In this document: piece by piece, positions 10,213 through 31,967 of the stretch | Numbering within the stretch: position 1 is the stretch's first letter | Layout: each line of letters opens with the position of its first letter | DNA from: Pontibacter rufus | GTDB lineage: Bacteria; Bacteroidota; Bacteroidia; Cytophagales; Hymenobacteraceae | Assembly (NCBI RefSeq): GCF_015694705.1 | Contig: NZ_JADQDR010000016.1 | Location: 1 to 64,000 of the forward strand | DNA length: 64,000 nucleotides | Direction of reading: 5' to 3' | The notes under the pieces: generated by a model | Database searches by the model: none | What the model was told of the DNA's origin: nothing | What the model saw: the letters and a program-made list of their open reading frames with translations, nothing else | Position numbers and translations under genes: made by a program

Positions 10213-10665
10213 CTAAGATTGACTCCTACTGTTGAATTGCGCTAATAATTGATCATGGCCAGGCGCTTCCCTGCCCTTCCAGATATTTCCATTTATCAAC
10301 CATTGTTCATAGTGACAAATCCATAACGCGGCCATTGGAATCAAATCTTTACCTACCCATAGCCGCCTGAAGAGTGAAATATCAGGCGGATAGTATAAGC
10401 ACAAACTATTATCCGGATACATATGAATAGCAACCGAACCTATTATTTTAGGCTTTAATACAAAGACTTTAAACCAGCTTTGCGAAATATATTGAACCTG
10501 TAGATGGTACTCAGCCTTATAGTCAGGATCTTTAATGGTAAAATCCACCAAAAGAATTTGGTTTTTTACGTTGATTTTACAACCCGGGAAAAGCTGTTGA
10601 ACCATAATTTGCTGAACATACTGTTCTAAGGCTGAGTACCTCTCTTTATAAATTGGTCGGATCAT
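10213..10665 (-). CDS. CBASS-associated E2-like protein (type II short)
   Basis: The 150-residue protein resembles the stand-alone E2-like proteins of type II-short CBASS. The putative catalytic Cys89 lies in HMYPDNSLCLYYPPD, with the His-x-Tyr-Pro stretch before it, followed by a long helix (PMAALWICHYEQWL) and a WKGREAPGH tail. In type II CBASS, E2-type enzymes act on the C-terminus of the CD-NTase to prime second-messenger synthesis. The start overlaps the CD-NTase stop by 20 bp, so the two are coupled. No E1 or JAMM gene is in this operon. The family call is by motif and context. Confidence 0.75.
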   Translation of the reverse strand: MIRPIYKERYSALEQYVQQIMVQQLFPGCKINVKNQILLVDFTIKDPDYKAEYHLQVQYISQSWFKVFVLKPKIIGSVAIHMYPDNSLCLYYPPDISLFRRLWVGKDLIPMAALWICHYEQWLINGNIWKGREAPGHDQLLAQFNSRSQS

Positions 10666-11848: not shown

Positions 11849-11861
11849 AGTTTTAATTAGT

Positions 11862-12731: not shown

Positions 12732-12856
12732 AGTTTACTGTTTTTTAATATTTTATACTTTTCCCCTTAACCTTCTGCCCATTACTTCCCTCTGTATAAT
12801 TTAAATTTGTAAATTTGGTAGAGATATGCCGAACCTGTTAGTGGGTATTCATAAGA

Positions 12857-12918
12857 GTATTAACCGGGTTCGTAGAAAACTCCCCCATGGGGTAAGAAAA
12901 ATATTTTCCGGTTAATAC
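12857..12918. promoter_or_regulatory. Concentric double palindrome between CBASS and its divergent regulators
   Basis: An 11-bp perfect inverted repeat, GTATTAACCGG (12857-12867) and CCGGTTAATAC (12908-12918), surrounds a central 10-bp palindrome CCCCATGGGG (12883-12892). Both share exactly the same centre, 12887.5. The element lies in the 191-bp region between the CBASS effector start and the sigma-like gene, and ends 4 bp before that gene's ATG. This symmetry is as expected of a cooperative operator, or of an mRNA hairpin controlling translation of the sigma-like gene. Confidence 0.7.
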
Positions 12919-12922
12919 AGTT

Positions 12923-13522
12923 ATGGAATTAGGTAAGTACTATGAAGCAAACCAGAGAAGATTCAATGTTCTAACAGATAATGATTGGCGTGCCGCCATT
13001 AAAAAATGTAAAGAACATCTTAACTGGAAGCTGAAACAAAAAACATTATTCGGAGCCCATTCGCCTGCTAACTTAGGAGCCGACCCGAAGGAGTATTACT
13101 TGAGCTTAGCGCTTGAAAAAATATTAGCCGGGAATTGGGAGTGGCAAACACAATTTTCTTTATCCCAACAGCTCATCCGCCTTATAGATAGTCTTATTTC
13201 GAAAGAGGTAGAGCGGGTAAAAACCCAAAAATCAGAGAACCTCAAAATTGAGTATCGGGATATTGAGGTTGAGTTTTATGATTTAGGGGACTGCCCTGAC
13301 CAATCAGACCGGGAAGAAAAGCAGGAGTATGAACGACAAGTTCAAGTAATAGAGGATGCAGTACAGGGTGATCAGCAATTGCAAGATTTTTGGGAAGCTG
13401 TTCAGGCCGGTTACAAGCGAAGTGACATGGCTGAACATCTTGGAATCACTCCCAAGCAATTGGATAAAGTGAAAGAAAAATTATTGCGAAGGGTTAGTGC
13501 CTTACAACCCTCAAATAAATAA
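12923..13522 (+). CDS. Sigma-70-like protein, candidate CBASS regulator
   Basis: The 199-residue protein ends with a helix-turn-helix like sigma region 4 (KRSDMAEHLGITPKQLDKVKEKLLRRV). Its N-terminal half is helical, with an acidic and aromatic segment (GADPKEYYLSLALEKIL) resembling region 2. It is transcribed divergently from the CBASS operon and forms an apparent operon with the next two genes (5-bp gap, then a 14-bp overlap). A role in switching the CBASS promoter is inferred from position. The sigma assignment is by pattern only and could be a related HTH family. Confidence 0.6.
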   Translation: MELGKYYEANQRRFNVLTDNDWRAAIKKCKEHLNWKLKQKTLFGAHSPANLGADPKEYYLSLALEKILAGNWEWQTQFSLSQQLIRLIDSLISKEVERVKTQKSENLKIEYRDIEVEFYDLGDCPDQSDREEKQEYERQVQVIEDAVQGDQQLQDFWEAVQAGYKRSDMAEHLGITPKQLDKVKEKLLRRVSALQPSNK

Positions 13523-13527
13523 CAGAT

Positions 13528-13935
13528 ATGGCAGCTACAAACCCAAAAGAATCATTAAAGAACTTATACGGCCTGATGATGGAAATCAATTATCATCAGG
13601 CAGAAGAAGAGACTCTAAATGAATTGCAAAATAATACGGATCCTTTTGTTGAGAAACATCTTAGGTTAGTAAAACAACTTTCAACCAAACTGCGGGCCGT
13701 AGCAAATAAAAGGAAATATACCGAGGCACTAGATCAAATAAAGTTACTCAAAGAAAAGGGGTTGGAAGAACTTAAAAAGTTACTTTCTTTTCATGATCAG
13801 TTAGAACTGCAACCTCTTTTTAGAAAGTTTGAGGGATTAACCCCAGAAGATGAAGCATCCATATTGGAAGATCAAGAGGTTTTAAGATTAATGGAAATAC
13901 TGAAAAATCGATTAGACGAGAATGCTGGGAATTAA
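13528..13935 (+). CDS. Small coiled-coil protein between sigma-like gene and M78 peptidase
   Basis: The 135-residue protein is almost wholly helical and charged, with heptad-like spacing (EALDQIKLLKEKGLEELKKLL, of which the last part is a leucine-rich helix). It has no recognised domain. Its place between a sigma-like protein and an ImmA/IrrE peptidase suggests an anti-sigma-like or adaptor role, perhaps the peptidase's substrate. That is inference. It starts 5 bp after the sigma-like stop and ends 14 bp inside the peptidase gene. Confidence 0.6.
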   Translation: MAATNPKESLKNLYGLMMEINYHQAEEETLNELQNNTDPFVEKHLRLVKQLSTKLRAVANKRKYTEALDQIKLLKEKGLEELKKLLSFHDQLELQPLFRKFEGLTPEDEASILEDQEVLRLMEILKNRLDENAGN

Positions 13936-14695
13936 TCCTATAAAAGCGGCTAACGACCTACGAAACCACTTGGGCTGCTGGGAACCGGGTGACATCTCGT
14001 TAGATGAAATGGTATTTGCGCTGGGAGGGGTTCTGAAAGAAAGCCCCATGGAAGGAGCAGAAGGTCGCATCCTCATGAAAGGAAGTAACGCAATCATTAC
14101 TATAAACTCCAATATTACATATCCAAGCAAAAGGAATTTTGTCATTGCTCACGAGATCGGTCATTTTATCTTACATAATGAATTAACTCCTTTCTACGCA
14201 GATAATGATAAGACCTTATCCGAATGGTATAAGAACGGACCCCAGGAACAACAGGCCAATCAATTTGCTTCGGAATTATTAATGCCATCAGAGTTATTTA
14301 AATCCAAGGTAGCGGGTAAGAGACTTAGTTTATCTCTAATTGAACAAACAGCAGCGTACTTTGGAGTATCCCTAACGGCTGCTTTCTTAAAGTATAAGGA
14401 TTTGGGTGATTTTCCAATTATGGTAATATACCTGGAGAATGGCATCGTTAAGTGGAAACAGTCCTCTTCTGATTTCCCTTTTCAATGGCTACCTATTAAT
14501 GGAAAGGTGCCCGTCTATACAGTAGCAGGAGATTATTTTAATAATAAGGGTTTAGAGGCGAAGCCGGAAAAGGTGGATGCAATTGAATGGTTTCCTTCAG
14601 ATTTCAAACTTAAAGATGAGCCAGATTGGCAATTATGGGAACAGTGCTTCCCAGTTTCTACTAATGGATTAGTTTCATGCTTATGGACACAATGA
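13922..14695 (+). CDS. ImmA/IrrE-family (M78) metallopeptidase
   Basis: The 257-residue protein has the zinc motif HEIGHFILH and a downstream glutamate in QQANQFASELLMP, the usual M78 arrangement. ImmA/IrrE peptidases cleave repressors to derepress phage, ICE or defence genes. The CapP peptidase does this for CBASS operons controlled by the HTH repressor CapH. Here the partner is a sigma-like protein and a small helical protein rather than CapH. The gene overlaps the previous one by 14 bp. Its C-terminal 80 residues carry no recognised domain. Confidence 0.88.
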   Translation: MLGINPIKAANDLRNHLGCWEPGDISLDEMVFALGGVLKESPMEGAEGRILMKGSNAIITINSNITYPSKRNFVIAHEIGHFILHNELTPFYADNDKTLSEWYKNGPQEQQANQFASELLMPSELFKSKVAGKRLSLSLIEQTAAYFGVSLTAAFLKYKDLGDFPIMVIYLENGIVKWKQSSSDFPFQWLPINGKVPVYTVAGDYFNNKGLEAKPEKVDAIEWFPSDFKLKDEPDWQLWEQCFPVSTNGLVSCLWTQ

Positions 14696-14799
14696 AGTTG
14701 ATCTATAATTAACATTCCTACTTTATAAGAACCTTGTTTGATTTTTAAGATTTCCTTTGAAATTATTAATTAATTTCAAATTTTAAGTCTCTCCTTTTA

Positions 14800-15849
14800 G
14801 TGAATATAAACCGTAATACCGATTGGTTTTCGATACTAGGTTTTCTAGTGATTTTTATATTAGTTCCTAGCGTTTGCATTTTAGCCGTATTTGCCCTCAC
14901 AGAGCCCTTTGGTCCTAGAGATTGGATAAAACATAATGCGGGGCAAATAGGTGATACTATTGGTGGAATTACAGGCCCAATCATAAATTTTGTGGCTGGG
15001 GTCCTTGTTTATCTTTCCTTCAAAGCCCAAATTAAAGCAAATAAAGAGCAAGCTACACAGTTTAAAAGAGAAACGGACGATAATACCTTTTTTAATATGA
15101 TTGCTCTCCACAATAAAAAGGTTGATTCTGTTACCTTTCAAATAGCAAGTGGGAAAAAAGTAGAAAGTTTCTCTGCATTTAAGAACTATACGACTGAATA
15201 CAATAAGCTTCTTAAAGAAGAATTCAGTATGATAGCGCGAAGAGAAATTTCACATAATTGGGCGGATCTTAGTTATCAAGCATATGATATAATCTGGCAA
15301 CCCTATGCCTTATTATATCATAAGCCTGTGCACTTCACTGGAAGTCAAAGCCAAGTTGATGAACTAAAAGCTTTATATGGATCAAGCGACGATACCTGGG
15401 AACTTACTAAAGGTTTGCTAGGTAATCCTATAGATACACCTCCGGAGGTAAATAGTTCTTTGCAAAAAGTCGGTTATTTACTTTTTGAAAAAATGTCATC
15501 AACCCAACGGCTTAAAGCAATCCAAGAGGTCCACTCAAAATTCTATCATGATCATGGGCACCACTTGGGGCATTATTTCCGTAACATTCATTATACCCTG
15601 GAAATTATTGATGGCTCTGAGCAGCCGCAAAAGTATGCTAAAATTTTCCGGGCTCAGCTCTCCCGTTACGAACTGGCGCTAATGTATTACAATGCCCTTA
15701 GTTCCATGTCAAGTAAGGAACACGTGCAGTTCCTGATTATATATGACATATTCAATGGTTTATATCCATCTGACTTAGCCTACTATCCAAGCCAAGAAGT
15801 TGTGAAAGAGGACCTACTATGCCGGATAAAATCTCCAGAGCGGCCTTAA
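14800..15849 (+). CDS. Putative phage abortive infection protein (AbiC-like)
   Basis: The 349-residue protein starts at a GTG and has two N-terminal membrane helices (ILGFLVIFILVPSVCILAVFA; PIINFVAGVLVYLSF) around a GDTIGGITGP loop. A cytosolic domain follows with FFNMIALHNKKV and the HHLGHYFRNIHYTLEII motif. This is the layout of the putative AbiC family (PF16872-type), membrane-anchored phage-exclusion proteins. It lies 104 bp after the M78 peptidase on the same strand, so it is probably another defence gene in the island. The mechanism is unknown. Confidence 0.8.
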   Translation: MNINRNTDWFSILGFLVIFILVPSVCILAVFALTEPFGPRDWIKHNAGQIGDTIGGITGPIINFVAGVLVYLSFKAQIKANKEQATQFKRETDDNTFFNMIALHNKKVDSVTFQIASGKKVESFSAFKNYTTEYNKLLKEEFSMIARREISHNWADLSYQAYDIIWQPYALLYHKPVHFTGSQSQVDELKALYGSSDDTWELTKGLLGNPIDTPPEVNSSLQKVGYLLFEKMSSTQRLKAIQEVHSKFYHDHGHHLGHYFRNIHYTLEIIDGSEQPQKYAKIFRAQLSRYELALMYYNALSSMSSKEHVQFLIIYDIFNGLYPSDLAYYPSQEVVKEDLLCRIKSPERP

Positions 15850-16032
15850 AATGGGCTTTGGGTTCTATATCTCCACTGACCAAAATGGAGCCTCTTCCAT
15901 TCACTAACGCTGAGTACTCTTGTTGCCTCTTTTACTACTATAATGGGCTTTGTTTTACTAGTAATGTGTTCTATCGGGGCAGCAGAGTGCTTCAGACAGC
16001 TAATGCATCTATAGCAACACAGCCAAAGCTTT

Positions 16033-17067
16033 TTACTTTAATGCGTTCAAATAAGGTTCTTGCCTTGCCTGAACGTGCATCTGGCTGACCTGGCGAGTTC
16101 CCCAAACAGGAGTGACAGTGATGGCGGTGGCATGAACATTGACCTGGATCTGGTCCATGACATTATCATTCAGTAACCCGAGGTAAACTTTGCCCCTGTT
16201 TGGGGCCTTCATCTGCGAGGCTTCGTTGATAACATCTCCTGACTTATATTGGTAGAACTGCTTACCAGCCTTAAACAGCAGCACGTTATCCCAGTCGGCA
16301 ATGAACCAGTACTTGACGTTGTCCTCCCCCTGGGCCTTGCTGAAGTAGTTGATGCCGTAAAGGGCCAGAGCGGCCATTGGGCCGTAGCCCGGCAGCTTTG
16401 CCACGGAGGCCGCCGCCGTGTTGACGAACTTGTCTCTGGCTCCGTCATAGGCTTTCTCCCCAGTCGCTCCCACTCCGATGTAATAGCTCCAGGAGACTGT
16501 CCCTTCTGGCAGCGTGAACTCAACTACTGTTTTGTTGGGGTTGCCGTTCATCGCGGAGGTGGACGACACAGGCGCCACCTGATCTGTCATCTTCACGATA
16601 GCTGTGTCGGCGTGCATTAGGTACCTTTCTTGCTTTGTGGTGTAGGTGGTGTCCTGCACGGTTCTCCAGTACACGCTGGAGTCAAAGATCCTGGTGTTCT
16701 CGCTAGCCGGTATGCGCTGTATCTTAAGCCTACAGACCCTGCCGCCCAATGAAGAGTTAGAAAGACGGAACTTGTAAATACCTGTCTTAGTCACTTTAAT
16801 CCTCTTGTCCTGCACCTTTTTTACTTTGTAGTCCGAGAACTTTGAGGAGGATGGCAACTCAATTATCTCAAGCTCTTTTAGCTCCTTGCCGTTCGCCTCG
16901 CTGAAGTCAAATACAATTTCGTCTCCTTTGGCGAATCCGTAGTAAAAAGCTTCCTCCCCCAGGCCAGCCACTTTCAAAGTGGACTCTGTAACGACAACAG
17001 ATTCTTGTGCATTAGAATATGAGAACGGTAAAAAAAGTAATAATGTAATTAGTAAAAGTTGCTTCAT
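16033..17067 (-). CDS. Secreted hypothetical protein
   Basis: I chose the start at 17067 because the signal peptide (KQLLLITLLLFLPFSYSNAQ) begins there; an upstream Met adds 11 residues with no function. The remaining 320 residues are beta-rich, with two domains separated near the middle and an AAASVAKLPGYGPMAALALYG hydrophobic hairpin in the C-terminal half. No family was recognised. It appears monocistronic and convergent with the AbiC-like gene. Confidence 0.7.
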   Translation of the reverse strand: MKQLLLITLLLFLPFSYSNAQESVVVTESTLKVAGLGEEAFYYGFAKGDEIVFDFSEANGKELKELEIIELPSSSKFSDYKVKKVQDKRIKVTKTGIYKFRLSNSSLGGRVCRLKIQRIPASENTRIFDSSVYWRTVQDTTYTTKQERYLMHADTAIVKMTDQVAPVSSTSAMNGNPNKTVVEFTLPEGTVSWSYYIGVGATGEKAYDGARDKFVNTAAASVAKLPGYGPMAALALYGINYFSKAQGEDNVKYWFIADWDNVLLFKAGKQFYQYKSGDVINEASQMKAPNRGKVYLGLLNDNVMDQIQVNVHATAITVTPVWGTRQVSQMHVQARQEPYLNALK

Positions 17068-17213
17068 GTTTAGGATGCAATTTTGATAATTTAAATGCAA
17101 AAAGATAGTCTAGCTACCGATGTCCGCTATACTAGGAGGAGAAAAGAAGGCAAAACTCACGATAGAATAACACTATAATCACTGAGGGAAAACATCACAG
17201 CTAATATTAACTA

Positions 17214-20200
17214 TCATTGACTGGAAATAACATAAAGATTGACTCCAGCGACCTCTTTAACGAAATTTTCCGTTACACCGAGCAGAGTGAGGATCTCCTG
17301 CGATGCTGCGCTTTTTGAAACGCCAGGTTGGACAATATAAACCTCAAATTCCATAGGAATCTCTTTCTTTGCGATTGAAAGCAGTTTCTCAAGATTCTGT
17401 ACTGTACCTTTCTCTAGCCTAGAACGCGAGTTCCCCCTTCTCTTTTTCTCCTTCCGCCGCAACAGATGGTTGAAGAATTCATTTCCTGCTTTGTGTTTCC
17501 AATGTATTGATTTCTGTGCTTGCCCGCACACTTCGTATAGGTTCTTAACTTGGTTGCTAACCACACCGTCTACTGCGTATTTGAGATGGAACAAGTCAAC
17601 CTTGATTTTTTCGCTATCAAGCTTAATTGCCACAACATCCGCAATTTCTCCAGAGTAATCATCGTCATAGACAATGTCGTAGTCACGGCTTTTAAGCTCT
17701 TTGATTACCTTATATTGAATAGAGTTGGTGATGAGGGGCGCCACATGCTGAGATTCCGCACTCAGATCAACACCTGTCCAGTCCCAAGCGATAATCTCTT
17801 CTCTTGGGTAGACGTTAATGCTGTGCTTCAGCTCCACATACTCATTCCCGGTTAACGCGGAACCATCGGCAAACCATATGGTTGGGGTAAACTCCTCAAA
17901 GAATCTGCAGGCATCAACACTCTTGCTTCCGTACCTTACCATGACAGTATTTCCACTTGGCTGTATAACCCTGAAGTCAGGATAAGGCTCTTCCGAGGCG
18001 GTGTCTAGAAAAAGCTGTAGCTCAAAAACTACGGATTTTGTTTCGGATTCAAGGGCAAAAGAGATTACGTCGTTAGCAGGACGGGCATTTAATCCTAACT
18101 CAATGGAAGAAAGGTCAAACACAACGCCGTCAATTTCAAACCTGAACCTTGTCTCGCTGCTGAGATACATTTCTACGGCCCAATCTATATACACGGGGTG
18201 TACATCCGGAACCTCCACCACCTGTGTCGGTATAAGCGTTTCCCTCAGTATTTGGTTAGGGTCCACATTAGGGTCAGAGAGTTTAGCACCAAGGCTGTCG
18301 CACCAACTTTTGAGGCCCTTCAAGTCTCCGTCCAGCTTTGTCCAAATCCTTCCCTTATAAGACGAACCAATATTGACGGGGCTGCCGTTCTCATAGCCTA
18401 TGCCCATCACAAAAGCTTTCTCTCCCTTTTGTCTCTCTGCGATACTCAACGCCTCCGCCACATCGCTTCCCACCATCATTCTAAACCGGACGTTCTTGCC
18501 GAGAAAGTACCTCAAGCCCACATTTTGAAGTCTTATCCGCTTTATGTTGTGAAATGCCCTGAAAACATCAATTCCCCGTATTAGTTCGGCCTCCTCTCCT
18601 ATAATAGCCTGCGCAAGATCTGTATAAAGGCTAGAGTTATCGGAGCTGTTTATAAAGAGGAGGTTATTCTTTGTCTCCCAGTAAACCACCGTCAATTTCC
18701 AGTCGACCAGGTAAATATCTTTATGATTAACCCACTCCACATCAACTTTATTAGCAGTGATGATGATGAGCATGTTCTCGTCACGGTTTATATCGTGGAA
18801 TTTAAACTCAAGCTCATCGTATCCTGGAATAGCCTTGTAGAACTGCTTAGGAGACCATTCGTTTGTCTTGTTCTTGTAGATGACGGTGCTAAGCTTCGTT
18901 CTTATGTTTTGCAGGGGGATTTTTGAGCTTCCAAGCTTTGTGAACCCATCCATGAGTTCTTTGAACTCTACCTCTTCATTGATTCTCCCGAAGCTTGCGT
19001 CTGAGAGTAGCTGGTTCCAGTCCGCGTCTCTAGCGTATAGATCTTCCAGCTCAGCCCGCACGGTTAAGTCTGCGATGTTGGCAATAAATGATGCATCTCC
19101 CAGTTCTTCATCATGTTTGGTTCTCGTGAATCGACCTGCAAACTGCAGGGTGATCGGCAGGCTCTTCCGAATGTCGTGGAAGGCTGCGACTTTCAGCTCT
19201 GGTAAGTCAAACCCTTCTCCAAGCATGTCAACGCAGACTATTATTTTGGCTTCCTTGTTGGTTATCCTGTCATATGTTTCCCTGAAGTTGGGTACGCCCG
19301 AATAGATTATGACAGGGTTGAGGTCGGTATAGTCTTTATAAATTTCATATACCTTGTTAGCTCTTTCTCTGGTACTGCACCTAGCCATCAAAAGATGGTT
19401 ATAGCCGTGGGCTCTATCCTGTCTAAGTCTTTCGACCGCTCTTTCAGCTATCTCTTTGTCAGCTACATCAGGGTCAAACTCCCGAATAGGAAGAAACTCG
19501 ATGTGCTTAAAGTATCCTTGTCTTTGTGCCTCCCGAAGTGGGAAGTTAAAGATGATTTTACCGTCCAGCCTTTTGCCGTCGTTTCTAAAGGGTGTGGCTG
19601 TGAACTGTATGATTCTTTCTGCTGGAAATTTTTCCTTAAAAGTGTTCCATGTGCTCGCCTTGACGTGGTGTGCCTCATCAATGAAGACATTGGAGCAGTT
19701 CTCTACCAGGAGCTGTGTTTGCTCTTCTGAAAGACCTGTCAAGATCTGCATGGTCGTCACAATTACGTTACAAGCTTGGGTAAGCTCATTAAGCTCTTCA
19801 ACAGTTTTAAAGGCTTGGCTCATAACCCCCACGATAGGATAGGCTGCTTCTTCTGCAATGATTTCGAATTGTTTCAGGAGACCAAGCGTAGTGAATTTCG
19901 CAGAAATTTGTCTTCGCAAAGAGTCAGAAGGCACTATCACCAAAAGTCTCCTGCACTTGTTTGCAATAAGCGCTGAGAGCATCGTCTCAGTCTTACCGGT
20001 TCCAGTCGGCATAACAACCGTGGCTGTATCAAGGGGCATCTTCAGGTGCCCCATAATCATATGCAGTGCCCCGATCTGTGGTTGCCTTAGTCCTGGACTG
20101 TCACTCTCCGGATCTTCTTCACGGTAAGAGAAGCGGTTTGTCCATGTCTTTATGATGCTTTCCGGTGTTAAAGTATCCTGTAGTGCTGGATGCTTTAGCC

Positions 20201-20471
20201 ATCCTTTAACCCTGATTTCGCCATTTGCGATGCGCTCCTCAGTTGGCCTGATGTTGGTAAGTAAGACTAAACCTTTATCAGCTGGACAGTCACCTTTATT
20301 ACAGGTCAGGTAATACTGGTCTTGGCCACATGAAACTGTCATACCGCTCCTTGTGCTAGAAGCTTTAACTACATCTAGTTCTATTCCTGGCTGAATCAGT
20401 TGCCGCGCTATATTTTTGGTTCCTACCTTCTGGTAAGCCTTTCGTTCAAGTTTAGGCAGTTTGAGAAGCAT
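17214..20471 (-). CDS. Large DEAD/DEAH-box (SF2) helicase-like protein
   Basis: The 1085-residue protein contains a superfamily 2 motor: Walker A MPTGTGKT at 154-161, DEAH at 265-268, the FTATPFR motif near 290 and a motif VI-like QFAGRFTRTKHD near 445. This resembles the helicases of restriction and other DNA-based defence systems. The first 100 residues include a Cys pair (CNKGDC), possibly zinc-binding. About 580 residues after the motor have no recognised domain. It stands directly downstream of the TerB/PH-like and TPR genes on the same strand. A defence role is plausible, but no nuclease or methylase is adjacent. Confidence 0.85.
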   Translation of the reverse strand: MLLKLPKLERKAYQKVGTKNIARQLIQPGIELDVVKASSTRSGMTVSCGQDQYYLTCNKGDCPADKGLVLLTNIRPTEERIANGEIRVKGWLKHPALQDTLTPESIIKTWTNRFSYREEDPESDSPGLRQPQIGALHMIMGHLKMPLDTATVVMPTGTGKTETMLSALIANKCRRLLVIVPSDSLRRQISAKFTTLGLLKQFEIIAEEAAYPIVGVMSQAFKTVEELNELTQACNVIVTTMQILTGLSEEQTQLLVENCSNVFIDEAHHVKASTWNTFKEKFPAERIIQFTATPFRNDGKRLDGKIIFNFPLREAQRQGYFKHIEFLPIREFDPDVADKEIAERAVERLRQDRAHGYNHLLMARCSTRERANKVYEIYKDYTDLNPVIIYSGVPNFRETYDRITNKEAKIIVCVDMLGEGFDLPELKVAAFHDIRKSLPITLQFAGRFTRTKHDEELGDASFIANIADLTVRAELEDLYARDADWNQLLSDASFGRINEEVEFKELMDGFTKLGSSKIPLQNIRTKLSTVIYKNKTNEWSPKQFYKAIPGYDELEFKFHDINRDENMLIIITANKVDVEWVNHKDIYLVDWKLTVVYWETKNNLLFINSSDNSSLYTDLAQAIIGEEAELIRGIDVFRAFHNIKRIRLQNVGLRYFLGKNVRFRMMVGSDVAEALSIAERQKGEKAFVMGIGYENGSPVNIGSSYKGRIWTKLDGDLKGLKSWCDSLGAKLSDPNVDPNQILRETLIPTQVVEVPDVHPVYIDWAVEMYLSSETRFRFEIDGVVFDLSSIELGLNARPANDVISFALESETKSVVFELQLFLDTASEEPYPDFRVIQPSGNTVMVRYGSKSVDACRFFEEFTPTIWFADGSALTGNEYVELKHSINVYPREEIIAWDWTGVDLSAESQHVAPLITNSIQYKVIKELKSRDYDIVYDDDYSGEIADVVAIKLDSEKIKVDLFHLKYAVDGVVSNQVKNLYEVCGQAQKSIHWKHKAGNEFFNHLLRRKEKKRRGNSRSRLEKGTVQNLEKLLSIAKKEIPMEFEVYIVQPGVSKSAASQEILTLLGVTENFVKEVAGVNLYVISSQ

Positions 20472-20539
20472 AATAAGTAAATCTTGGGTGAATAGTGAAT
20501 AAGTATCCTAGAAATGGTCAAGTACTTGAAAAGGTGCGT

Positions 20540-21631
20540 TCACACCCTTTCCCGGAGCAGCCGTTCCAGAATAATACAGAAAACATCTGCTCTGCTTGGC
20601 AGCTGCAGGAGCGGACTCTTGCCTGTCTCCTTACCGATCTCCACCCCATCTGAGTAGGGCGTAATATGGAGTATCTTGTCCAGGCGAATGTTGGAATTCT
20701 TCTTTGCCCCGGTGAAGATGATGCGCTTGTTGGTGAGGTAGACCGTGCCGGAGTCGATGAGCTTCATCTCATCAGAACTGTAGCTGCGCGGCGTATAGGA
20801 CCCACTGCGCAGGTAAAAGCCCTTGGCTACCCGGAAGCTGGTGGAGTAGCCACTGTAACTGGTCCGGTGTCTTACGGTCCGTAGCTCGTGCCAGTCTACG
20901 CCAGGTATGGAGATAAAGCACCTTTCACTCTTTTGAAGCAGGATGTCGGGCTGTATGGCGGGCAACTCTGTGTTCTCAAGTGCCCAGTAGAGCTTGAGCT
21001 GCTGCAACTGGCGCTTTGTCTGCTCGTCCGTCTCTAGCGTGACATTCAGATTGGCGGCAATGGCCTCCAGCTCCCGCTCCTCTTCTGGGGAGAGCCGCTC
21101 GTCTGCGATGATGCTGGAGACATAGCTCTGAACAAAAACACTCCTCACCTCCTTCGAAATGCTGTTGACAAGCGCCTCCGGTAGCTTTAGGTCCGCCTCC
21201 AGCTTGTTGAGGAACTCCTTTTCCTCCTCCGTCAACCTGCCGTCAGCGATGGCTCTCTCAAAAGAAGACTTGTACACCTTCTGTCCTATTTCAGAATGGA
21301 GAAAGTTTACGGTCCGCTCTTCGAGTTGCAGCAACTGTCGAAGGTGTCTTAGGTCTTGCAGCTCCTCCTCACTCAGAACACAGTCCTCAAAACAATGATT
21401 GAGGTAGACGGCATAAAACTCCTCCATGTTGAGCCTGAACTGGTGCAGAGCATCTATTTTATAGGTCCGTGTTATCCTATCGATTTCCATGCTGTTAATT
21501 TCCCGTACCTGCTTTGAAGCCAGCAGGTTGTTGATCTCGATCACAGCATTTTCCTCCGGATGCTGCCTCAGGATCCGTTGCATAAAGCTTCTCTTCAGCA
21601 GAGGTGCCTCATTGAATATTTGTTTGTTCAT
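20540..21631 (-). CDS. TerB-like helical domain plus PH/GRAM-like domain protein
   Basis: The 363-residue protein has a central repeat of acidic helices typical of TerB-like domains (RAIADGRLTEEEKEFLNKLE and SSIIADERLSPEEERELEAI). A C-terminal beta-rich domain follows with GTVYLTNKRIIFTGAKKN, like bacterial GRAM/PH domains. It is cytoplasmic. It sits 2 bp after the TPR-protein gene and 68 bp before the helicase gene, all on one strand. TerB-type domains recur in stress and phage-response systems. Its specific function is unknown. Confidence 0.75.
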   Translation of the reverse strand: MNKQIFNEAPLLKRSFMQRILRQHPEENAVIEINNLLASKQVREINSMEIDRITRTYKIDALHQFRLNMEEFYAVYLNHCFEDCVLSEEELQDLRHLRQLLQLEERTVNFLHSEIGQKVYKSSFERAIADGRLTEEEKEFLNKLEADLKLPEALVNSISKEVRSVFVQSYVSSIIADERLSPEEERELEAIAANLNVTLETDEQTKRQLQQLKLYWALENTELPAIQPDILLQKSERCFISIPGVDWHELRTVRHRTSYSGYSTSFRVAKGFYLRSGSYTPRSYSSDEMKLIDSGTVYLTNKRIIFTGAKKNSNIRLDKILHITPYSDGVEIGKETGKSPLLQLPSRADVFCIILERLLRERV

Positions 21632-21633
21632 AG

Positions 21634-22566
21634 CTAGTATTTTCTGTATTCTTCATAGACAGGGTCGTTCCAGTCGCACACGCCGCCGTGGTGGGAGCAG
21701 GCTCCCCTGCCCTTCGCGCTTGAGGTGGAGCCGTCGCAACAACGGGTCACATAGTAGGCCACCCTTCTCTTTAGCGGGTTGATGCGCTCATGCAGTCTTT
21801 CGGCCTCCTTGTTGCCTGCTGCCATTGCCGCTTTTAGATCCTGCACGGCCTCTTTTGTCTGACCCATTTTGCTGTAGCAGACGGCGCGGTTGTAAAGCAG
21901 TGCGTCATCCGAGGGGCGCTGCTTAAGCAGGGAAGTTAGTTCAGGCAAGGCTGCCTTATACTTGGAGGCCTTCACTAGGGAGAAGGCTCGTAGTGACAGA
22001 ATGCCGGTTCTAATGTCTTGAAGGGTGTCTTTCTCTGTTTGGTGCAGAGAGAAGGTATCCGCATGCAAGAGCACTGCCAGCGCTTGGTCTGTTTTGTCGG
22101 CATTACGAAGCCGAATACTCTCCGTCACGTAGTAAGCCAGGCTGTCCTGGCGCTCTTGTTCCTTCTGCTCAGCCAGCAAGCGCTCTTGCCTTGCTTTCTC
22201 CTCTTTCAACTGCAGTTCATGTGCCTGGCGTGCGTCTACCTCTGAGTAGTGGTTAATAAATGGAGTAGAAATCAGGAACAAAGTTCCTCCCAGAATAGCC
22301 TTCACTTTCCCTTTCATGCGGAACCTGCCTTTGCGCTCCAGCCACCGTTGGCCCTGAGGAAGCAGTATGAAGCCAAGTGCGCCTAATAGACAGGTGACGA
22401 TAGGGTGTTGGAGGAAGGCCAATGCCGCTAACAGGAAGAAGAAGGCTCCTATGTAAGAAAGGATCTGCAAAAGAATATTACCCGGCTTAGAGGTGTAGGG
22501 GTCACCTTTGAAGTAGGCAGGAAGGACCTTGGCATGGCCTGGAATTAGATTAGGGACGTATCGCAT
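21634..22566 (-). CDS. Membrane TPR protein with C-terminal DUF3761-like tail
   Basis: The 310-residue protein has two or three membrane helices near the N-terminus (ILLQILSYIGAFFFLLAALAF; PIVTCLLGALGFILLP; VKAILGGTLFLISTPF). A charged coiled coil follows, then TPR helices (DALLYNRAVCYSKMGQTKEA), and a Cys/His-rich tail (CDGSTSSAKGRGACSHHGG) like DUF3761. It is the first gene of the apparent three-gene operon with the TerB/PH-like and helicase genes. The topology suggests a membrane scaffold. Function is otherwise unknown. Confidence 0.75.
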   Translation of the reverse strand: MRYVPNLIPGHAKVLPAYFKGDPYTSKPGNILLQILSYIGAFFFLLAALAFLQHPIVTCLLGALGFILLPQGQRWLERKGRFRMKGKVKAILGGTLFLISTPFINHYSEVDARQAHELQLKEEKARQERLLAEQKEQERQDSLAYYVTESIRLRNADKTDQALAVLLHADTFSLHQTEKDTLQDIRTGILSLRAFSLVKASKYKAALPELTSLLKQRPSDDALLYNRAVCYSKMGQTKEAVQDLKAAMAAGNKEAERLHERINPLKRRVAYYVTRCCDGSTSSAKGRGACSHHGGVCDWNDPVYEEYRKY

Positions 22567-22999
22567 TTGCTCTCACAGCTAAGTTTAAGATCTGGAAAGC
22601 AAAATAGCAATATTTTGTATATGTTATATATATCAATTAATATTATATAAATAATTCTCACGCGTTAATTAGCCCTCACCGACAGGGGAACATGTGCCAC
22701 GATGGTATATGTACTTCGAATCAAGTACCAGTTTTGTTGTTTTTGTCTCATGAGATATGGACCTAAGGCTACTACTGGTTCTTTTGACTTCCACAGCCTG
22801 CTGTTAATCCAATGTAACCTCTTACAGGGTGCCTTACACAGTCTACTTAATGTTAAAGCCGCTACACAAAAGGCACCACCGTCATTTGCCCATGTTTTAC
22901 CTTGTGCCCACCATACGAGTACCTGCGGGCGTACGCTCCCTTTTTCGGTAGCGGGCAATTTCATAACTTACGCTGAAATGTATTTGAGTAAACTACACC
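22567..22999. other. Divergent intergenic region with no firm gene
   Basis: This lies between the minus-strand TPR operon and the plus-strand AlbA_2 gene, so it should hold both promoters. The first 100 bases are very AT-rich. Two overlapping ORFs of about 100 codons on opposite strands (22665-22964 and 22702-23010) have no domain and are probably chance or decayed sequence. Confidence 0.45.
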
Positions 23000-24454
23000 A
23001 TGAGCGATAAGCGGATACTCCAGCTCCTGCAGGAAGGTGAAGGGCTGAGAACGGAGTTCAAGAAAGCCAGCACCAGCCTGCCTAAGAACCTGTTTGAAAC
23101 CGTCTGCGCTTTTTTGAACCGTGCAGGCGGGAGCATCTTCCTGGGCGTTGACGATGACGGTAGCGTGCTCGGCGTCGACCCAGCAAGCGTGGGAAAGCTC
23201 AAGACTGATCTTGCCAACCTGTCGAACAACGCCCAGAAGCTGGAGCCTCCGTTCATCCTTTTTCCGGAGGAGTATGAGCTCGATGGTAAGGCTATCCTGC
23301 ACATCCAGGTGCCTGAGAGCTCGCAGGTACACAGGACCAACGGCGCCATATTCGACAGAAGCGAGGACGGAGACTACCGCTTGAACAACCACGGCCAAGT
23401 TGCTGAACTCTATAACAGGAAGCGGGCACATTTCACAGAGAATACCATTTATCCGTATCTGGGCTTTGATGATTTCAAGCCTGAGCTTTTCCCGAAGGTT
23501 AGGAACCTTATCTACAGCCGGGATCCTGGACACCCGTGGCTGGCCATGGATGATGAGCAGTTGTTGAGAACAGCAGGCTTCTACCGTCGGGACTTTGCCA
23601 CTAACCAAGAGGGCTACACCTTGGCCGCGGCGCTTGTCTTCGGTCGCGACGAGGTAATTCAGCAGGTGCTGCCGCACTATAAGATAGATGCCCTGGTCCG
23701 CCGCGAGGACTTGGACCGCTATGACGACAGAGCCTATATTCAGACGAACCTGATTGAGGCCTACGAACAGCTCATGGCTTTCATAGCCAAGCATCTGCCA
23801 GACAGGTTTCACATGGAGGGTGATACTCGGGTCAGCCTGAGGACAAAGATTTTCCGTGAGGTCGTGGCCAACCTTATTGTGCACCGTGAGTATACCAATG
23901 CATTGCCTGCCACCTTGGTCATCTATAGGGACAGGGTAATCACGGAAAACGCCAACCGGCCGCAGCATCACGGACTGCTTGTCCCGGGGCAGTTCTCCCC
24001 TTTCCCTAAGAATCCGACTATCGCTAAGTTTTTTATCCAGCTGGGCAGGGTTGACGAGCTCGGGTCTGGAGTGCGCAACGTGCACCTTTTCCTGCCCCTC
24101 TACTCCCCTGGCAGGGTACCGACTTTCGATGACGGTGATGTGTTCAGGATAGAAATCCCTTTAGACCATGCGATGGCTGAAGGCAGTGTACACGGCGTTA
24201 GCGAAGGACTGCTAGGCGAGCATAACGTTAAGGTAAGCGAGCGAATAGCCAAGGTTCTGGACTTCGTGCTGGAGCATCCCCAAGCGACTACCGCTGTCAT
24301 AGCTGAATTTATAGGTGTCTCGGAGAAAACGGCCAAGAGGGATTTAAAGGTGCTGAGGGATAGAAAGCTGATTCACTTCGTGGGACCGCCAAAGTCTGGT
24401 CATTATATGCCAACGGAGGAGTTGAGGGAGATTTTAAGGAACAGTCGCAGTTGA
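23000..24454 (+). CDS. AlbA_2/Schlafen-domain putative DNA-binding regulator
   Basis: The 484-residue protein begins with an AlbA_2 (Schlafen AAA_4) domain: EFKKASTSLPKNLFETVCAF, then GGSIFLGVDDDGSVLGVD. A GHKL-like/HATPase_c_4 region follows (EVVANLIVHREYTNALPA; GSGVRNVHLFLP) and the protein ends in a winged helix (TTAVIAEFIGVSEKTAKRDLKVLRDRKL). Such proteins are usually called transcriptional regulators or ATP-binding proteins, and are frequent in accessory regions. GC content is visibly higher than in the first 15 kb. No target is known. Confidence 0.87.
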   Translation: MSDKRILQLLQEGEGLRTEFKKASTSLPKNLFETVCAFLNRAGGSIFLGVDDDGSVLGVDPASVGKLKTDLANLSNNAQKLEPPFILFPEEYELDGKAILHIQVPESSQVHRTNGAIFDRSEDGDYRLNNHGQVAELYNRKRAHFTENTIYPYLGFDDFKPELFPKVRNLIYSRDPGHPWLAMDDEQLLRTAGFYRRDFATNQEGYTLAAALVFGRDEVIQQVLPHYKIDALVRREDLDRYDDRAYIQTNLIEAYEQLMAFIAKHLPDRFHMEGDTRVSLRTKIFREVVANLIVHREYTNALPATLVIYRDRVITENANRPQHHGLLVPGQFSPFPKNPTIAKFFIQLGRVDELGSGVRNVHLFLPLYSPGRVPTFDDGDVFRIEIPLDHAMAEGSVHGVSEGLLGEHNVKVSERIAKVLDFVLEHPQATTAVIAEFIGVSEKTAKRDLKVLRDRKLIHFVGPPKSGHYMPTEELREILRNSRS

Positions 24455-24481
24455 GCGTGGAGTGTATAGGGACAGCTATAG

Positions 24482-24525
24482 CTGTAAATGACCCTGTAAA
24501 TGACCCTGTAAATGACCCTGTAAAT
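24482..24525 (+). repeat. Short tandem repeat, 12-bp unit
   Basis: About 3.7 copies of the unit CTGTAAATGACC follow directly after the stop of the AlbA_2 gene. Copies are identical, which points to recent slippage. No function assigned. Confidence 0.9.
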
Positions 24526-25085
24526 ATCTAGTCTGGACACAATCTTGAATTTAATATAAAAGGACTTAGCAGCTGGGAACTGCTTTCATGATTTTGTTGA
24601 TGCAAACAGAAGCTGTTCATAGGCAGGATCACCAAAGGGTAAAAGCTAGCTGCAAGGCAAGGCCAAATCCCGCAGCTGAGGGAGAGAAGTTAGGTACCAA
24701 CTGTCCCACCGGACAAGGAAATTAGGAGCCACAAAAAGAAAGGCATTGCCATTGGCAGTGACTTTCTTAGTAATTACGTAGTGTTGTTGAAATCTCGTCT
24801 GCACTGGATGTCGAAAATCGCATACAGTGCGTAAATATTTTGTAAGCCCCGATCCCACGGCCTCTGCGTTTGCAGCCTCACATTGCCATATTCACTACAA
24901 GTGCTGCATCAGTCTTTAACTAAACCAGTTGCAATTGCCATACCGGAGCTGACGGAAACACTAACTAAGCTTGCCCAAAAGGAATCCGCTGCAGCAGGAT
25001 CGGAGAACCGCCCAAATCGGCTGCCTCCAAACCAAAACAGCCGAGGAGAACGTTTACAGGAGGAGTTAAACTTTAGCGTATTTAA
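24526..25085. other. Gene-poor stretch upstream of a decayed gene
   Basis: No intact gene was seen. A 92-codon plus-strand ORF at 24883-25161 overlaps the pseudogene in another frame and may represent its shifted 5' portion. A 70-codon minus-strand ORF at 24646-24858 has no family resemblance. Confidence 0.4.
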
Positions 25086-25370
25086 CCATGGCATACTTCA
25101 CCAGATCTGCTCTACGACTACTCCTGGAAAGCAAGGCAGGAGAACGACAACCCAATTGTAACAGGCTTCCCAGATAATGCCTTGCTAGATCGAAATGAAG
25201 GGTATGAGGTGTTGTACCTGATCAACCAGGTCGCTCAAAAGTACAGTTGGAAGCCAGACGGCGGGGTGGCCGGGCACAAGATAGAGAAGATGCTGCGAGC
25301 CATGCCGGGCAGTATCAGAAGCAGGAGGAATGTGATGGACTGGCTAGGCAACAACTGGTCACGGTACTAA
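25086..25370 (+). pseudogene. C-terminal remnant of a Bacteroidota uncharacterized protein
   Basis: The frame open from 25086 contains a conserved-looking segment: DNPIVTGFPD, then LDRNEGYEVLYLINQ, then a short C-terminal module (KIEKMLRAMPG, RSRRNVMDWLGNNW). I recognise this end as common to a family of uncharacterised Bacteroidota proteins. There is no suitable ATG and a stop sits just upstream, so the 5' part is missing or in another frame. It is a relic and unlikely to function. Confidence 0.6.
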
Positions 25371-25684
25371 TACCGAGAACCATCCCCCCTATTGCCCTAA
25401 AGGTGCTTTTCTCAAAAGTACACATACTTAGATCGCATTCACCCTCAGATGAGCCTAAAGATTTTGAGTTTCCCGAGGTAACGCTCTTGCTACTGTTGGC
25501 ACCCAAAAAATAGCCGCGAAGAGAAATAGCGCAGTCAATGTAGCATTAAAATAGAAAAGGTAAAGAGACATGCAGAGCGCGCGTGTCTAACAAGATTAGT
25601 ATATTTTAATTTTTTATCCCAAATATTTAGCAAATGTCGCGTATGTTACGTAGATTGTTAGCAAGAATTTAAAAGTAAGAAATC

Positions 25685-25834
25685 ATGGAAAAGAACAACA
25701 ATCCTGGTAACCCAAATCCTCCAGGAAACCCCACCCCCCCAGGCAACCCGACAGGTCCGGGAAGACCCCCGGGAAGGCCAGAGCCTGGCCCGAAGAACCC
25801 GCCAAAACCTCCTGGGGACAGACCTGTAGGATAA
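25685..25834 (+). CDS. 49-residue Pro/Gly-rich peptide ending in Gly; candidate protein modifier
   Basis: This short ORF is made of 19 Pro, 9 Gly and several Asn, with repeats such as PPGNP and GRPPGRP. It begins MEKNNNPGNP and ends GDRPVG followed directly by the stop. It has no hydrophobic core and should be intrinsically disordered, not a beta-grasp fold. It lies 32 bp before the E2-E1 fusion gene on the same strand, so the two are almost certainly co-transcribed. The exposed C-terminal Gly is what an E1 would adenylate, so the peptide is a candidate modifier or conjugation substrate. The role is inference; co-location and composition are direct observations. Confidence 0.7.
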   Translation: MEKNNNPGNPNPPGNPTPPGNPTGPGRPPGRPEPGPKNPPKPPGDRPVG

Positions 25835-25866
25835 GGTTAGCTGTACGAACAAGAGAATATTAAAAA

Positions 25867-27687
25867 ATGGCCCAATTACCCTGGTTTGAAGCCAAACCAC
25901 ACTTACTTGAGAAGGAAGTAGATGCCCTGACTGCCGCTGGAGTTGAACACAAGATTAGTTCGACAGCCGGCAGTCAGGGCATCATGCAAATAGACCTCAT
26001 CATTGATGAGGCCAGTAGCGCAGTATTCAGCTTACCTAAAGAATACGCCCCTATTAAGCTCACAGCAGTTTTCCCAGACAACTACCCGTTTTTCCGTCCT
26101 GAGGTCTATGCAGACGGCTTGGTCCTGCCGCGGCATCAGAACCCGTTTGGTAAGAACCTTTGCCTGCTGCCAAGGTCGACGGCCGAGTGGGAGCCAGAGT
26201 GGACGCTGCTCACTTTCCTGCAGTCCCAACTGCCGAAAGTGCTGGAGAAAGGGTCCATTGAAGATCCTGCGCTGCTCGCAGAGGATCCGCATGAGCAGGC
26301 AGAGCCCGTGAGCGAGTACATAGCAGATCCATTCCACCCCGTGGTTTTTGACGGCTCCTGGGCCGAGACAATACCTGATCAAGGTGATGATATTGTCTTG
26401 CTAGGCAGAACTCTTGTAGGTGTCCCTGAAAAGGCAAGCTTCCAGACAAGAATGGTCGTGCTGGAGACTACGAATCCTTCCGGTAAAAAAGTTGGTCAGC
26501 TCCCCTCATCCCTCAATAAGCACTTCCAACAGAAGCTACAGGGAACCCTGCTACGGCTGCGTGAGCGCCCTTCTTTGGAGAATCCACTTGAGGACCTGAA
26601 GCAGCTTTCCAAACTTGCTGAAAGCAAGGGTATCTATAACTTAGCCCAAAAGCCACTTTATCTGAAAAATGGGATAAGAATCACTCATGTGATCGGATTA
26701 AACTTCCCTGAGGAGGTTAAGCCGGGGGTTCCGGGAATGGGCTGGCTGTTCCTCGTGGCTGGCGTAGTTCAGGAGACGAAAAGCCTCAGTGGCAAAAAGG
26801 GCCGTCCCAGTGAGAAAGCTATCGCCTACTATGCCAAGGCCCTTAGAGCCGGGGAAAGGGACCTCCAGGTTAGGGTGCCTAGGCTGCGTGAACTGAAGAG
26901 CAAAACTATAGCGCTTGTGGGCTTAGGGTCCCTTGGCGCTCCCGCTGCAATAGAGTTTGCTAGAAACCAGGTAGGGCAGTTAAGAATCCTGGATTATGAC
27001 GTGGTAGAGCCAGGGCCTACTGTGCGCTGGCCGTTGGGCCTCGCATCCGCTGGCCTGTTGAAGACGGAGGCTGTCAAGGCCTTCATAGATGAGCATTATC
27101 CAACAACAGTGGTTACGCCACTTGATCATAAGATTGGGGGTGTTCCGCCGGTTCATGCGCAAAGCAAAAAGCCTTCTGAGCAGCAAGTTCTAGAGCAGCT
27201 GCTTGACGGAGCCTCTTTACTGTTTGATGCCTCGGCAGAGGTGGGCGTCAACCATTTTCTATCCGAGGAAGCCAAAAGGCTAGGTATTCCCTATGTTTCG
27301 ATTTACGCAACACCGGGAGCCTGGGGCGGTTTGACCATGCGTGTCGTTCCAGGCAAAACCAAAGGCTGCTGGATGTGCCTGCAGCACGCAAAGACTGACA
27401 ACACCGTTCCCGTACCCATAGCAGATCCGGCGGGGGACATCCAAACAGCCGGCTGCGGGGACCTAACCTTTACGGGGGCAGGATTTGACCTGCAAAACGT
27501 TTCCCTGGCAGGTGTAAGATTGGCAGTCGCCACACTCTGCTCCGGGGAGGAGGGAGGGTATCCTGATATGGATTGGGATGTGGGGGTGCTTAACTTAGCA
27601 GACGCCGAAGGCAGGCCTGTTGCACCTAAGTGGTCTACTTACACTCTAGACTCACACTCCAAATGCGACTACTGCAATGCACAGTAG
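25867..27687 (+). CDS. Fused E2-E1 (Cap2-like) ubiquitin-transferase enzyme
   Basis: The 606-residue protein joins an N-terminal E2-like domain to a C-terminal ThiF/E1 domain. In the E2 part, Cys99 lies in RHQNPFGKNLCLLP, the usual catalytic setting. The E1 part has the nucleotide motif GLGSLGAP (352-359), LDYDVVEPG (375-383) and the Arg of TVRW. Cys530 in TAGCGDLTFTGAGFD is the likely adenylation-transfer cysteine. CxxC pairs at 501/504 and 600/603 suggest a zinc site. The architecture matches CBASS Cap2, but no CD-NTase is nearby. The enzyme should activate a C-terminal Gly and transfer it to a target. The JAMM gene overlaps its end by 11 bp. Confidence 0.9.
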   Translation: MAQLPWFEAKPHLLEKEVDALTAAGVEHKISSTAGSQGIMQIDLIIDEASSAVFSLPKEYAPIKLTAVFPDNYPFFRPEVYADGLVLPRHQNPFGKNLCLLPRSTAEWEPEWTLLTFLQSQLPKVLEKGSIEDPALLAEDPHEQAEPVSEYIADPFHPVVFDGSWAETIPDQGDDIVLLGRTLVGVPEKASFQTRMVVLETTNPSGKKVGQLPSSLNKHFQQKLQGTLLRLRERPSLENPLEDLKQLSKLAESKGIYNLAQKPLYLKNGIRITHVIGLNFPEEVKPGVPGMGWLFLVAGVVQETKSLSGKKGRPSEKAIAYYAKALRAGERDLQVRVPRLRELKSKTIALVGLGSLGAPAAIEFARNQVGQLRILDYDVVEPGPTVRWPLGLASAGLLKTEAVKAFIDEHYPTTVVTPLDHKIGGVPPVHAQSKKPSEQQVLEQLLDGASLLFDASAEVGVNHFLSEEAKRLGIPYVSIYATPGAWGGLTMRVVPGKTKGCWMCLQHAKTDNTVPVPIADPAGDIQTAGCGDLTFTGAGFDLQNVSLAGVRLAVATLCSGEEGGYPDMDWDVGVLNLADAEGRPVAPKWSTYTLDSHSKCDYCNAQ

Positions 27688-28162
27688 CTCTACGTATGTG
27701 GTATGGCTAAGGGAGTCGGCCTACAATGCTGTTCTTGTGGAGGCGATAAAGGCTATGCCCCGTGAGACGGGAGGCGTCCTAATCGGGTACTGGGGGAACC
27801 TATATGAAGCTGTGGTTACTGACGTCATAGGGCCAGGTTCCTTGGCTGTTCACAAGAGGCATTCGTTTGTTCCTGATAATACCCATCATGTGAGGGAAAT
27901 CGAGAAAGCATATCTGAAATCGGATAGGACAGAGACATATCTGGGTGACTGGCACACCCATCCGAAGTCAGGCGCTTACCTGAGCGAACGAGATCAAAGC
28001 ACTCTTCTTAAAATCGCTAATTATAAGGAGGCAAGGTTGACAAAACCGCTGATGATGGTCTTGGGAACCAAACCCTTTGGTATAGAGGCTTGGATAAATG
28101 CCTATGCCTCCTCGGGTAAGAGGGAAACAAAAAAATGTACGCTAAAAATTTATCAAGCCTAA
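27677..28162 (+). CDS. JAMM/MPN deconjugating metalloprotease (Cap3-like)
   Basis: The 161-residue protein has a complete JAMM zinc site: Glu30 in PRETGGVLIG, then His93-x-His95 with Ser103 and Asp106 in DWHTHPKSGAYLSERD. JAMM proteins remove or mature ubiquitin-like modifiers, as Cap3 and BilB/BubD-type enzymes do. The start overlaps the end of the E2-E1 gene by 11 bp, so it is translationally coupled. It completes a peptide, E2-E1, protease operon. All metal and acid residues are present, so it should be active. Confidence 0.92.
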   Translation: MHSSSTYVVWLRESAYNAVLVEAIKAMPRETGGVLIGYWGNLYEAVVTDVIGPGSLAVHKRHSFVPDNTHHVREIEKAYLKSDRTETYLGDWHTHPKSGAYLSERDQSTLLKIANYKEARLTKPLMMVLGTKPFGIEAWINAYASSGKRETKKCTLKIYQA

Positions 28163-28710
28163 AGCTGTAGAGCAGTAGTTATCTTTCTTTTCCACAGCTT
28201 TACTAGTGCTAAGATGATTCCAGCTAATTTCTCACTAGACTGATGCAGTTGTACACTGTTTAGCTATTTAGCTGGGACGCTGAACAGCAGTAAGAACAGT
28301 GCAAAGAAGATATAGAAGTAGGATTATTGTATTTAAGGTGTGTACCAAGAAAACCTAGTATAGATGCATAAGAACCAAACTGCGTTCTCTGAAGTATTCT
28401 TGGTGCATTTCCGAAGCTTTATCTCATCTACCTAATTGCTGGACGAGTCGGGGAAACAACTCTTCTCCCCTGCCGCTACCGGATGGGTTGACCCTTTGAC
28501 TATCTATCCTCCTTTAACCCTTTGAGTTCCTAAAATGCCTGTCCGAGCAGAGAGTTTTACATATTTGTGTACCTATAACGTTTTACAAACGCACCATTTG
28601 AAAACGTGACGGGCGGGGCTTGGGCTGACGGCGGCGGGTAACCGGAGCCGCTCGCACCGGCAGGCAAGCATCGTCTCCATAACAGTAGGGCCACGGGGGC
28701 TTCTTTTCTT
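28163..28710. other. Intergenic stretch after the conjugation operon
   Basis: No gene was seen. The sequence is AT-rich at first and becomes GC-rich toward the DUF6933 gene, marking the start of a compositional shift. Confidence 0.5.
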
Positions 28711-31900: not shown

Positions 31901-31967
31901 CATTTACCTGACACAAGTACAAGTCATAAAACAATGAAAAAAAGGAGCATAGAATGTGCGAGAAAAA

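Follow-up and report, generated by a model that had tools for sequence, protein, structure and literature searches.

What does a ubiquitin-type conjugation operon attach to its targets when no ubiquitin-like modifier is encoded among its genes? This question is raised by a locus of Pontibacter rufus (assembly GCF_015694705.1, contig NZ_JADQDR010000016.1, positions 1 to 64,000; this whole stretch of 64,000 nucleotides is referred to below as the window), in which a 49-codon open reading frame (ORF) rich in proline and glycine (P/G-rich) stands ahead of genes for a predicted fusion of a conjugating (E2) and an activating (E1) enzyme and for a JAMM metalloprotease. From a comparison with related loci, we consider it quite likely that the operon is a self-contained conjugation system with the P/G-rich peptide as its modifier, the conjugation of the peptide being what we infer from the sequences.

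A P/G-rich peptide encoded with an E2-E1 fusion and a JAMM protease

The window peptide consists of 19 Pro, 9 Gly and 21 other residues, of which two (2/49 of the whole) are order-promoting, and it closes with the C-terminal stretch -PPGDRPVG. A spacer of 32 bp (25835-25866) separates it from the E2-E1 gene (coordinates in Table 1); the description of this ORF in the first-pass annotation, which was made from the letters of the DNA, proved exact on re-reading in its length, Pro and Gly counts, Gly at the stop and distance to E2-E1. Among the 569 ORFs of at least 30 amino acids (aa) in the window, it is the only P/G-rich one (cutoff of 0.38 of the last 40 residues). Pfam gave no match for the peptide and, with this composition, it is probably not a folded beta-grasp domain.

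The two enzymes were likewise recognised in the first-pass annotation, and the features named there (Cys99, the GLGSLG loop and Cys530 in the E2-E1 fusion, and a zinc site in an overlapping JAMM gene) were recovered, both cysteines being invariant in 32 homologs and E30, H93, H95, S103 and D106 of the JAMM enzyme in 26. The E2 part matches UBE2L3 at about 2e-6 (sequence profile), while the Pfam match of the fusion to Prok-E2_B (1.8e-4, 21.9 bits) is under the cutoff of that model (25.4). The structure model of the fusion (mean predicted local distance difference test, pLDDT, of 88.4) has Cap2 (7to3) as its best Foldseek match over the whole length, with BubCD (9eae) and MccB also among the fold matches; Cap2 is not among the 50 VIA rows listed, and that comparison scarcely covers the E2 part. 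The predicted E2 identity is therefore based on the UBE2L3 profile and the whole-length Foldseek match. The JAMM ORF overlaps the E2-E1 ORF by 11 bp, and its model (pLDDT 95.8) has structural matches to Rpn11 and Cap3 (9ild). The best PADLOC models are E1-E2 for the E2-E1 ORF and JAB for the JAMM ORF, and NCBIfam gave sub-cutoff matches only (best, 6A-MBL Cap2-3 protein for E2-E1 and TIGR02256 for JAB).

Conservation of the peptide across related loci

Related loci, 62 in number with 59 distinct E2-E1 match regions, comprised the window copy, 9 plasmid loci (H1-H5, H7 and H10-H12, taken from 25 tblastn-matched records, with the long matches H6, H8, H9 and H13 left out) and 52 loci that came from scanning a single genome of each species, with an E1-domain motif as the seed and thus blind to the peptide. 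Four loci with an E1 half or a distant E1 only (L062, L063, L071 and L072) were set apart, leaving 58 loci with the E2 N-terminus. An intact P/G-rich ORF ending in Val-Gly plus 0-2 residues lies directly upstream of E2-E1 in 56 of these 58, overlapping the E2-E1 start in some, and the peptide is frameshifted in L068 and L069, both in broken-looking operons. Later searches yielded three further copies, all with the peptide (the second NGR234 plasmid copy, with KHVG, and a pair from a single Hymenobacter genome, with VGLN, one of the pair adjoining an E2-E1 match that covers the second part only), and their remaining loci were repeats of known ones. These counts bear out the check proposed in the first-pass annotation, namely that a P/G-rich ORF should be found at the same place in related operons. 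The loci span Bacteroidota, Actinomycetota, Pseudomonadota, a candidate division KSB1 bin and a Planctomycetota bin, with a broken E2-E1 in the last. A JAMM motif lies downstream of E2-E1 in 58 of the 62 loci and is broken by a frameshift in 2 more.

Val-Gly is present in each of the 47 distinct peptides, with Pro at -3 in 35 and Arg or Lys at -4 in 45, so that the peptides share with ubiquitin-like modifiers a C-terminal Gly, in some presumably after processing. Residues follow the Gly in five (QQ, LL, R, QG and Q), all at loci with a JAMM motif; one or two residues past the Gly fit processing by the JAMM enzyme, yet they weaken the literal rule of an ending in Gly. The conserved terminal Gly that had been proposed thus stands as a Val-Gly, usually with Arg/Lys at -4, and not as the literal last residue of every peptide. 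In the E2-E1 tree, tail variants cluster together in part only. The gene table of PLSDB, which is incomplete, lists the peptide gene for one of the nine plasmid copies, a case that shows how annotation can miss such small genes.

Evidence that the peptide is a selected protein

An origin of the ORF as a chance or low-complexity artefact is rejected by an ORF control within the loci and by the codon pattern. Across the 62 loci (550,908 bases) there are 6327 ORFs of at least 30 aa, of which 58 are P/G-rich and end in Val-Gly or Ile-Gly plus 0-2 residues; 56 of them occupy the position of the peptide, and the coordinates of the remaining 2 place them antisense to it. None of 1204 ORFs qualified in 38 loci of other E1-like genes, although the in-locus count is the better control because those loci are less GC-rich (0.497 versus 0.592). 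The window and Rufibacter peptides have 43 of 49 residues in common (by codon, 20 are identical, 23 synonymous and 6 changed), with 3, 2 and 27 differences at codon positions 1, 2 and 3, and third-position differences dominate in all 9 of the peptide pairs compared.

In 11 of 12 pairs the percentage identity of the peptide surpasses that of either enzyme (window-Rufibacter: peptide 88% versus enzymes 59% and 60%; window-Pimelobacter: 76% versus 41% and 47%). Shuffled P/G-rich peptides align too easily, with mean identities of 38-51%, and the identities of the L029, L024, L060 and L048 peptides to the window peptide exceed all 200 shuffles. Judged on these comparisons, the ORF encodes a genuine protein under selection, in which the C-terminal Val-Gly is invariant.

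Proline follows proline at lag 3 in 0.589 of cases versus 0.360 in shuffled peptides (standard deviation 0.013), and at lag 2 in 0.184, a period of three that would match the register of a polyproline II helix. Cys is found in none of the 47 distinct peptides and no Lys position is conserved, which suggests a donor rather than an acceptor or catalyst; three distinct peptides as read are without Lys, one of them (L023) being read minus its folded YegP part.

YegP-domain proteins with the same tail

In two Hymenobacter loci (L021 and L023) the same tail (-DRQVG and -DRPVG) ends a protein of 160-162 aa, with two DUF1508 (YegP) stretches ahead of it (E 1.3e-18, 1e-21). The fusion of YegP to this tail suggests that it is the tail that the enzymes require, with the body being exchangeable. 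In the available text of an independent study (PMC13373217), 57 of 443 cases are reported to have a YegP homolog following capK/capS.

Proposed mechanism

In the mechanism that we propose, the JAMM enzyme would trim the one or two residues past the Gly in versions carrying them, and the E1 domain would adenylate the Gly and capture the peptide on Cys530. The fused E2 would receive the peptide on Cys99 and pass it to a target amine (a lysine, an N-terminus or possibly a lipid), from which the JAMM enzyme could remove it again. The body of the peptide would probably be a flexible polyproline-II-like rod, replaceable by folded YegP domains, and a beta-grasp fold would be unnecessary because the E1 need read the extended tail only. 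There is a precedent in Cap2 of type II CBASS (cyclic oligonucleotide-based antiphage signaling systems), which, in the available text of PMC10097602, takes the C-terminal Gly/Ala of CD-NTases (cGAS/DncV-like nucleotidyltransferases), proteins without likeness to ubiquitin that retain this end only where Cap2 and Cap3 of full length are encoded in the operon; an E1 so shaped would thus need no ubiquitin fold. Taken in its widest form, this would be a ubiquitin-type E1-E2-JAMM cascade without a beta-grasp protein, in which a short, wholly unfolded Val-Gly modifier is recognised by its tail alone and has an exchangeable body, and which would represent a new class of bacterial protein or lipid tag spread on mobile elements; we regard this as moderately likely.

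Several observations weigh against this reading. The adenylate, the thioester and the conjugate are all deduced, and the C530 loop (529-531) has low confidence in the structure model. A CD-NTase is encoded in the island that holds the operon, so that the first-pass statement that neither a CD-NTase nor a beta-grasp protein was present stands for the operon, where neither is found, and fails, as to the CD-NTase, for the island. Between L048 and L051 the peptide (89%) is not above E2-E1 (91%; JAMM 85%), and the identities of the L030, L032 and L013 peptides to the window peptide fall inside the shuffled range, so that between distant members clear conservation is limited to tail, composition and position. 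The operon family is also rare, with a patchy distribution: it is carried by 8 of 204 genomes from the taxonomic family to which the window belongs, a full-length match was found in 1 of 395 genomes sampled from the phylum (the window's own), and three other groups gave 4 of 296, 1 of 394 and 2 of 397, the query genome being counted in each.

Alternative explanations

The invariant tail would suit binding as well as catalysis, and no target is known, so the peptide could be a pseudosubstrate or regulator whose Val-Gly tail occupies the E1 site while the true substrate is encoded elsewhere. We think this unlikely, as our flank clustering (described below) showed, at its cutoffs, no further conserved gene next to the operon, the residues past the Gly in some loci suggest processing, and the active sites of E2, E1 and JAMM are all kept. 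Activation of a peptide C-terminus by an E1, as by MccB for microcin C7, would also be expected if the peptide were the precursor of a small secreted product, akin to a ribosomally synthesised and post-translationally modified peptide; an E2 domain and a JAMM protease are not known to belong to the microcin C7 pathway, and among the clustered flanking genes neither a transporter nor another tailoring family is recurrent, which makes such a product very unlikely. The fused E2 with its invariant Cys similarly speaks against a sulfur carrier, for which the E1 would form a thiocarboxylate and the JAMM enzyme would expose the Gly as in ThiS/MoaD/CysO-type pathways. With no conserved biosynthetic or sulfurtransferase gene found in the flanks by clustering, and a peptide that appears to be without the beta-grasp fold, we find this scarcely plausible.

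The presence of a CD-NTase and an E2 in the island, at a distance of about 14 kb from the operon, together with the action of Cap2 and Cap3 on CD-NTases (available text of PMC10097602), suggests another candidate substrate, with the E2-E1 acting in trans and the peptide being incidental. This CD-NTase ends in neither Gly nor Ala (Table 1), however, and has its own adjacent E2, while the peptide accompanies E2-E1 nearly throughout the loci and no CD-NTase family recurs in the clustered flanks; the explanation is in our view highly improbable. The least probable explanation takes the ORF for a leader peptide or translational coupler and not a functional protein, in keeping with its shortness, its position directly upstream and its overlap with the E2-E1 start in some loci. 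Mostly synonymous drift, the invariant C-terminus and the in-frame YegP-domain fusions are at odds with it, and we reject it.

Relation to known systems

To our knowledge, known E1/E2-driven modifiers are folded, either as beta-grasp proteins or, in the case of CBASS, as an entire enzyme that carries a flexible tail. Bil/Bub operons use a beta-grasp modifier; the present operon resembles them in its E1, E2 and protease genes for conjugation and differs in that no such modifier was seen in the operon or flanks. With Pup the peptide shares a short length and intrinsic disorder, whereas Pup ends in GGE/GGQ and the distinct peptides here all have the Val-Gly end, and the enzymes named for the Pup-proteasome system in the available text are PafA and Dop, in place of E1, E2 and JAMM. 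MccB of microcin C7 is likewise an E1-fold enzyme acting on a short peptide, in a pathway that is not known to involve an E2, a JAMM protease or the attachment of tags to other molecules.

Type II CBASS is similar in the E2-E1 fusion fold of Cap2, its JAMM partner Cap3 and, in the available text, the recognition of a C-terminal Gly/Ala by Cap2, but the present operon is not of this type because it is without a CD-NTase and has a short, apparently unfolded peptide in its place. The best fit among described operons is type 6c of Iyer, Burroughs and Aravind 2006 (PMC1779556), whose prototype is on the Rhizobium NGR234 megaplasmid and which holds an E2+E1 multidomain protein with a JAB gene next to it. 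Two members of the present peptide/E2-E1/JAMM family are found in NGR234. For type 6c, the available text of that paper lists a protein predicted to bind metal and a second protein that is uncharacterized and left unspecified, and no P/G peptide is described in it. In the open-licence PMC literature searched, there was no mention of such a P/G peptide.

The enzymes are thus of a known kind, and there is a real chance that the peptide is a new class of modifier. If so, a conserved unfolded modifier of 40-70 aa would show that the cascade needs an extended tail only, which bears on the origin of ubiquitin-like systems and would offer a minimal tagging tool. As the operon is only about 2.5 kb, the proposal is directly testable.

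Genomic context of the operon

The operon is located in an island of which a second species of the genus (G019) has a nearly identical copy, with different flanks on both sides, which indicates recent transfer; the island ends share no repeats of at least 9 bases within 200-base stretches. Further accessory genes of the island, among them a CBASS operon, are given in Table 1. The island CapP matches both the CapP and the M78 models, and CapP is an M78 protein that regulates immune operons.

Table 1. Positions in the window of the peptide operon, its key codons and the island around it.
Feature	Position	Strand	Remarks
P/G-rich peptide ORF (proposed modifier)	25685..25834	+	49 codons, ATG start, DRPVG-stop
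Codons for conserved Pro-Val-Gly end	25823..25831	+	TAA stop 25832-25834
E2-E1 fusion enzyme, 606 aa	25867..27687	+	ThiF 1.4e-15 (Pfam); Cap2 6.3e-23 (profile)
C99 codon, predicted E2 catalytic Cys	26161..26163	+	invariant in 32 rows; aligns with UBE2L3 active-site Cys
GLGSLG nucleotide loop, E1 domain, residues 352-357	26920..26937	+	G352, G354, G357 invariant in 32 rows
C530 codon, predicted E1 catalytic Cys	27454..27456	+	invariant in 32 rows
JAMM (Mov34/MPN) metalloprotease, 161 aa, proposed maturation/removal enzyme	27677..28162	+	Prok-JAB 1.2e-13 (Pfam)
Island holding the operon, ~19 kb	9694..28602	.	99.5-99.7% identical in G019
Stand-alone CBASS E2	10213-10665	-	island
CBASS CD-NTase	10646-11848	-	island; ends -DPTNL; operon separate from peptide operon
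CBASS NARF-domain protein	11862-12731	-	island
CapH/CapP	13528-14695	+	island
AbiC-like gene	14800-15849	+	island
DEAD/ResIII helicase	17214-20471	-	island
TerB/GRAM-like	20540-21631	-	island
Tetratricopeptide repeat (TPR) protein	21634-22566	-	island
Schlafen AlbA with helix-turn-helix (HTH)	23000-24454	+	island

Genes flanking the operon were clustered across loci (600 ORFs of at least 60 aa from 60 loci, E 1e-8, three or more genera). Three clusters occur in at least three genera, two of them HTH/M78 or M78 (ImmA/IrrE) and one from three rhizobial genera, and no generally conserved fourth gene was found at these cutoffs, which shorter or faster-evolving genes could escape. A hidden beta-grasp or other partner gene was considered and dropped, none being recurrent at the cutoffs used: a beta-grasp modifier gene was found neither in the operon (Pfam) nor as a recurrent gene of the flanks, the rest of the genome not having been searched. 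Similarly, no metal-binding family (two Cys, His and acidic residues) recurs among these flanking ORFs, although the cutoffs could miss one.

An M78-like ORF that contains HExxH is encoded no more than about 1.1 kb upstream of the operon in 10 of the 60 loci (L029, L032, L044, L045, L050, L052-L054, L056 and L021), from 9 genera with a Kiloniellaceae bin counted as one; it is on the opposite strand and divergent in 8 of the 10, and Pfam confirms M78 in two. These upstream ImmA/IrrE (M78) genes are possible regulators of the operon. Carriage on plasmids and in a defence island, and the presence of ImmA/IrrE-type genes next to some copies, point to a role in stress or phage defence. Viral carriage was detected neither in a narrow scan nor in a phage collection, and an alignment scan gave three weak E1 matches.

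A RES toxin and Xre/MbcA antitoxin pair stands upstream and divergent in L014, L018 and L020 (Sinorhizobium and Sphingobium plasmids). A link to heavy metals, raised by copper/DUF305 genes beside the Hymenobacter and Arthrobacter plasmid copies, was dropped as these genes were not recurrent in the flank clustering. In the window itself, the stretch right of the island end (28600-31900) is GC-rich (61% in 28000-32000) and has no convincing gene, and at 34459-35804 a CAT-family acetyltransferase (PF00302, 1.1e-27) adjoins a HAD hydrolase.

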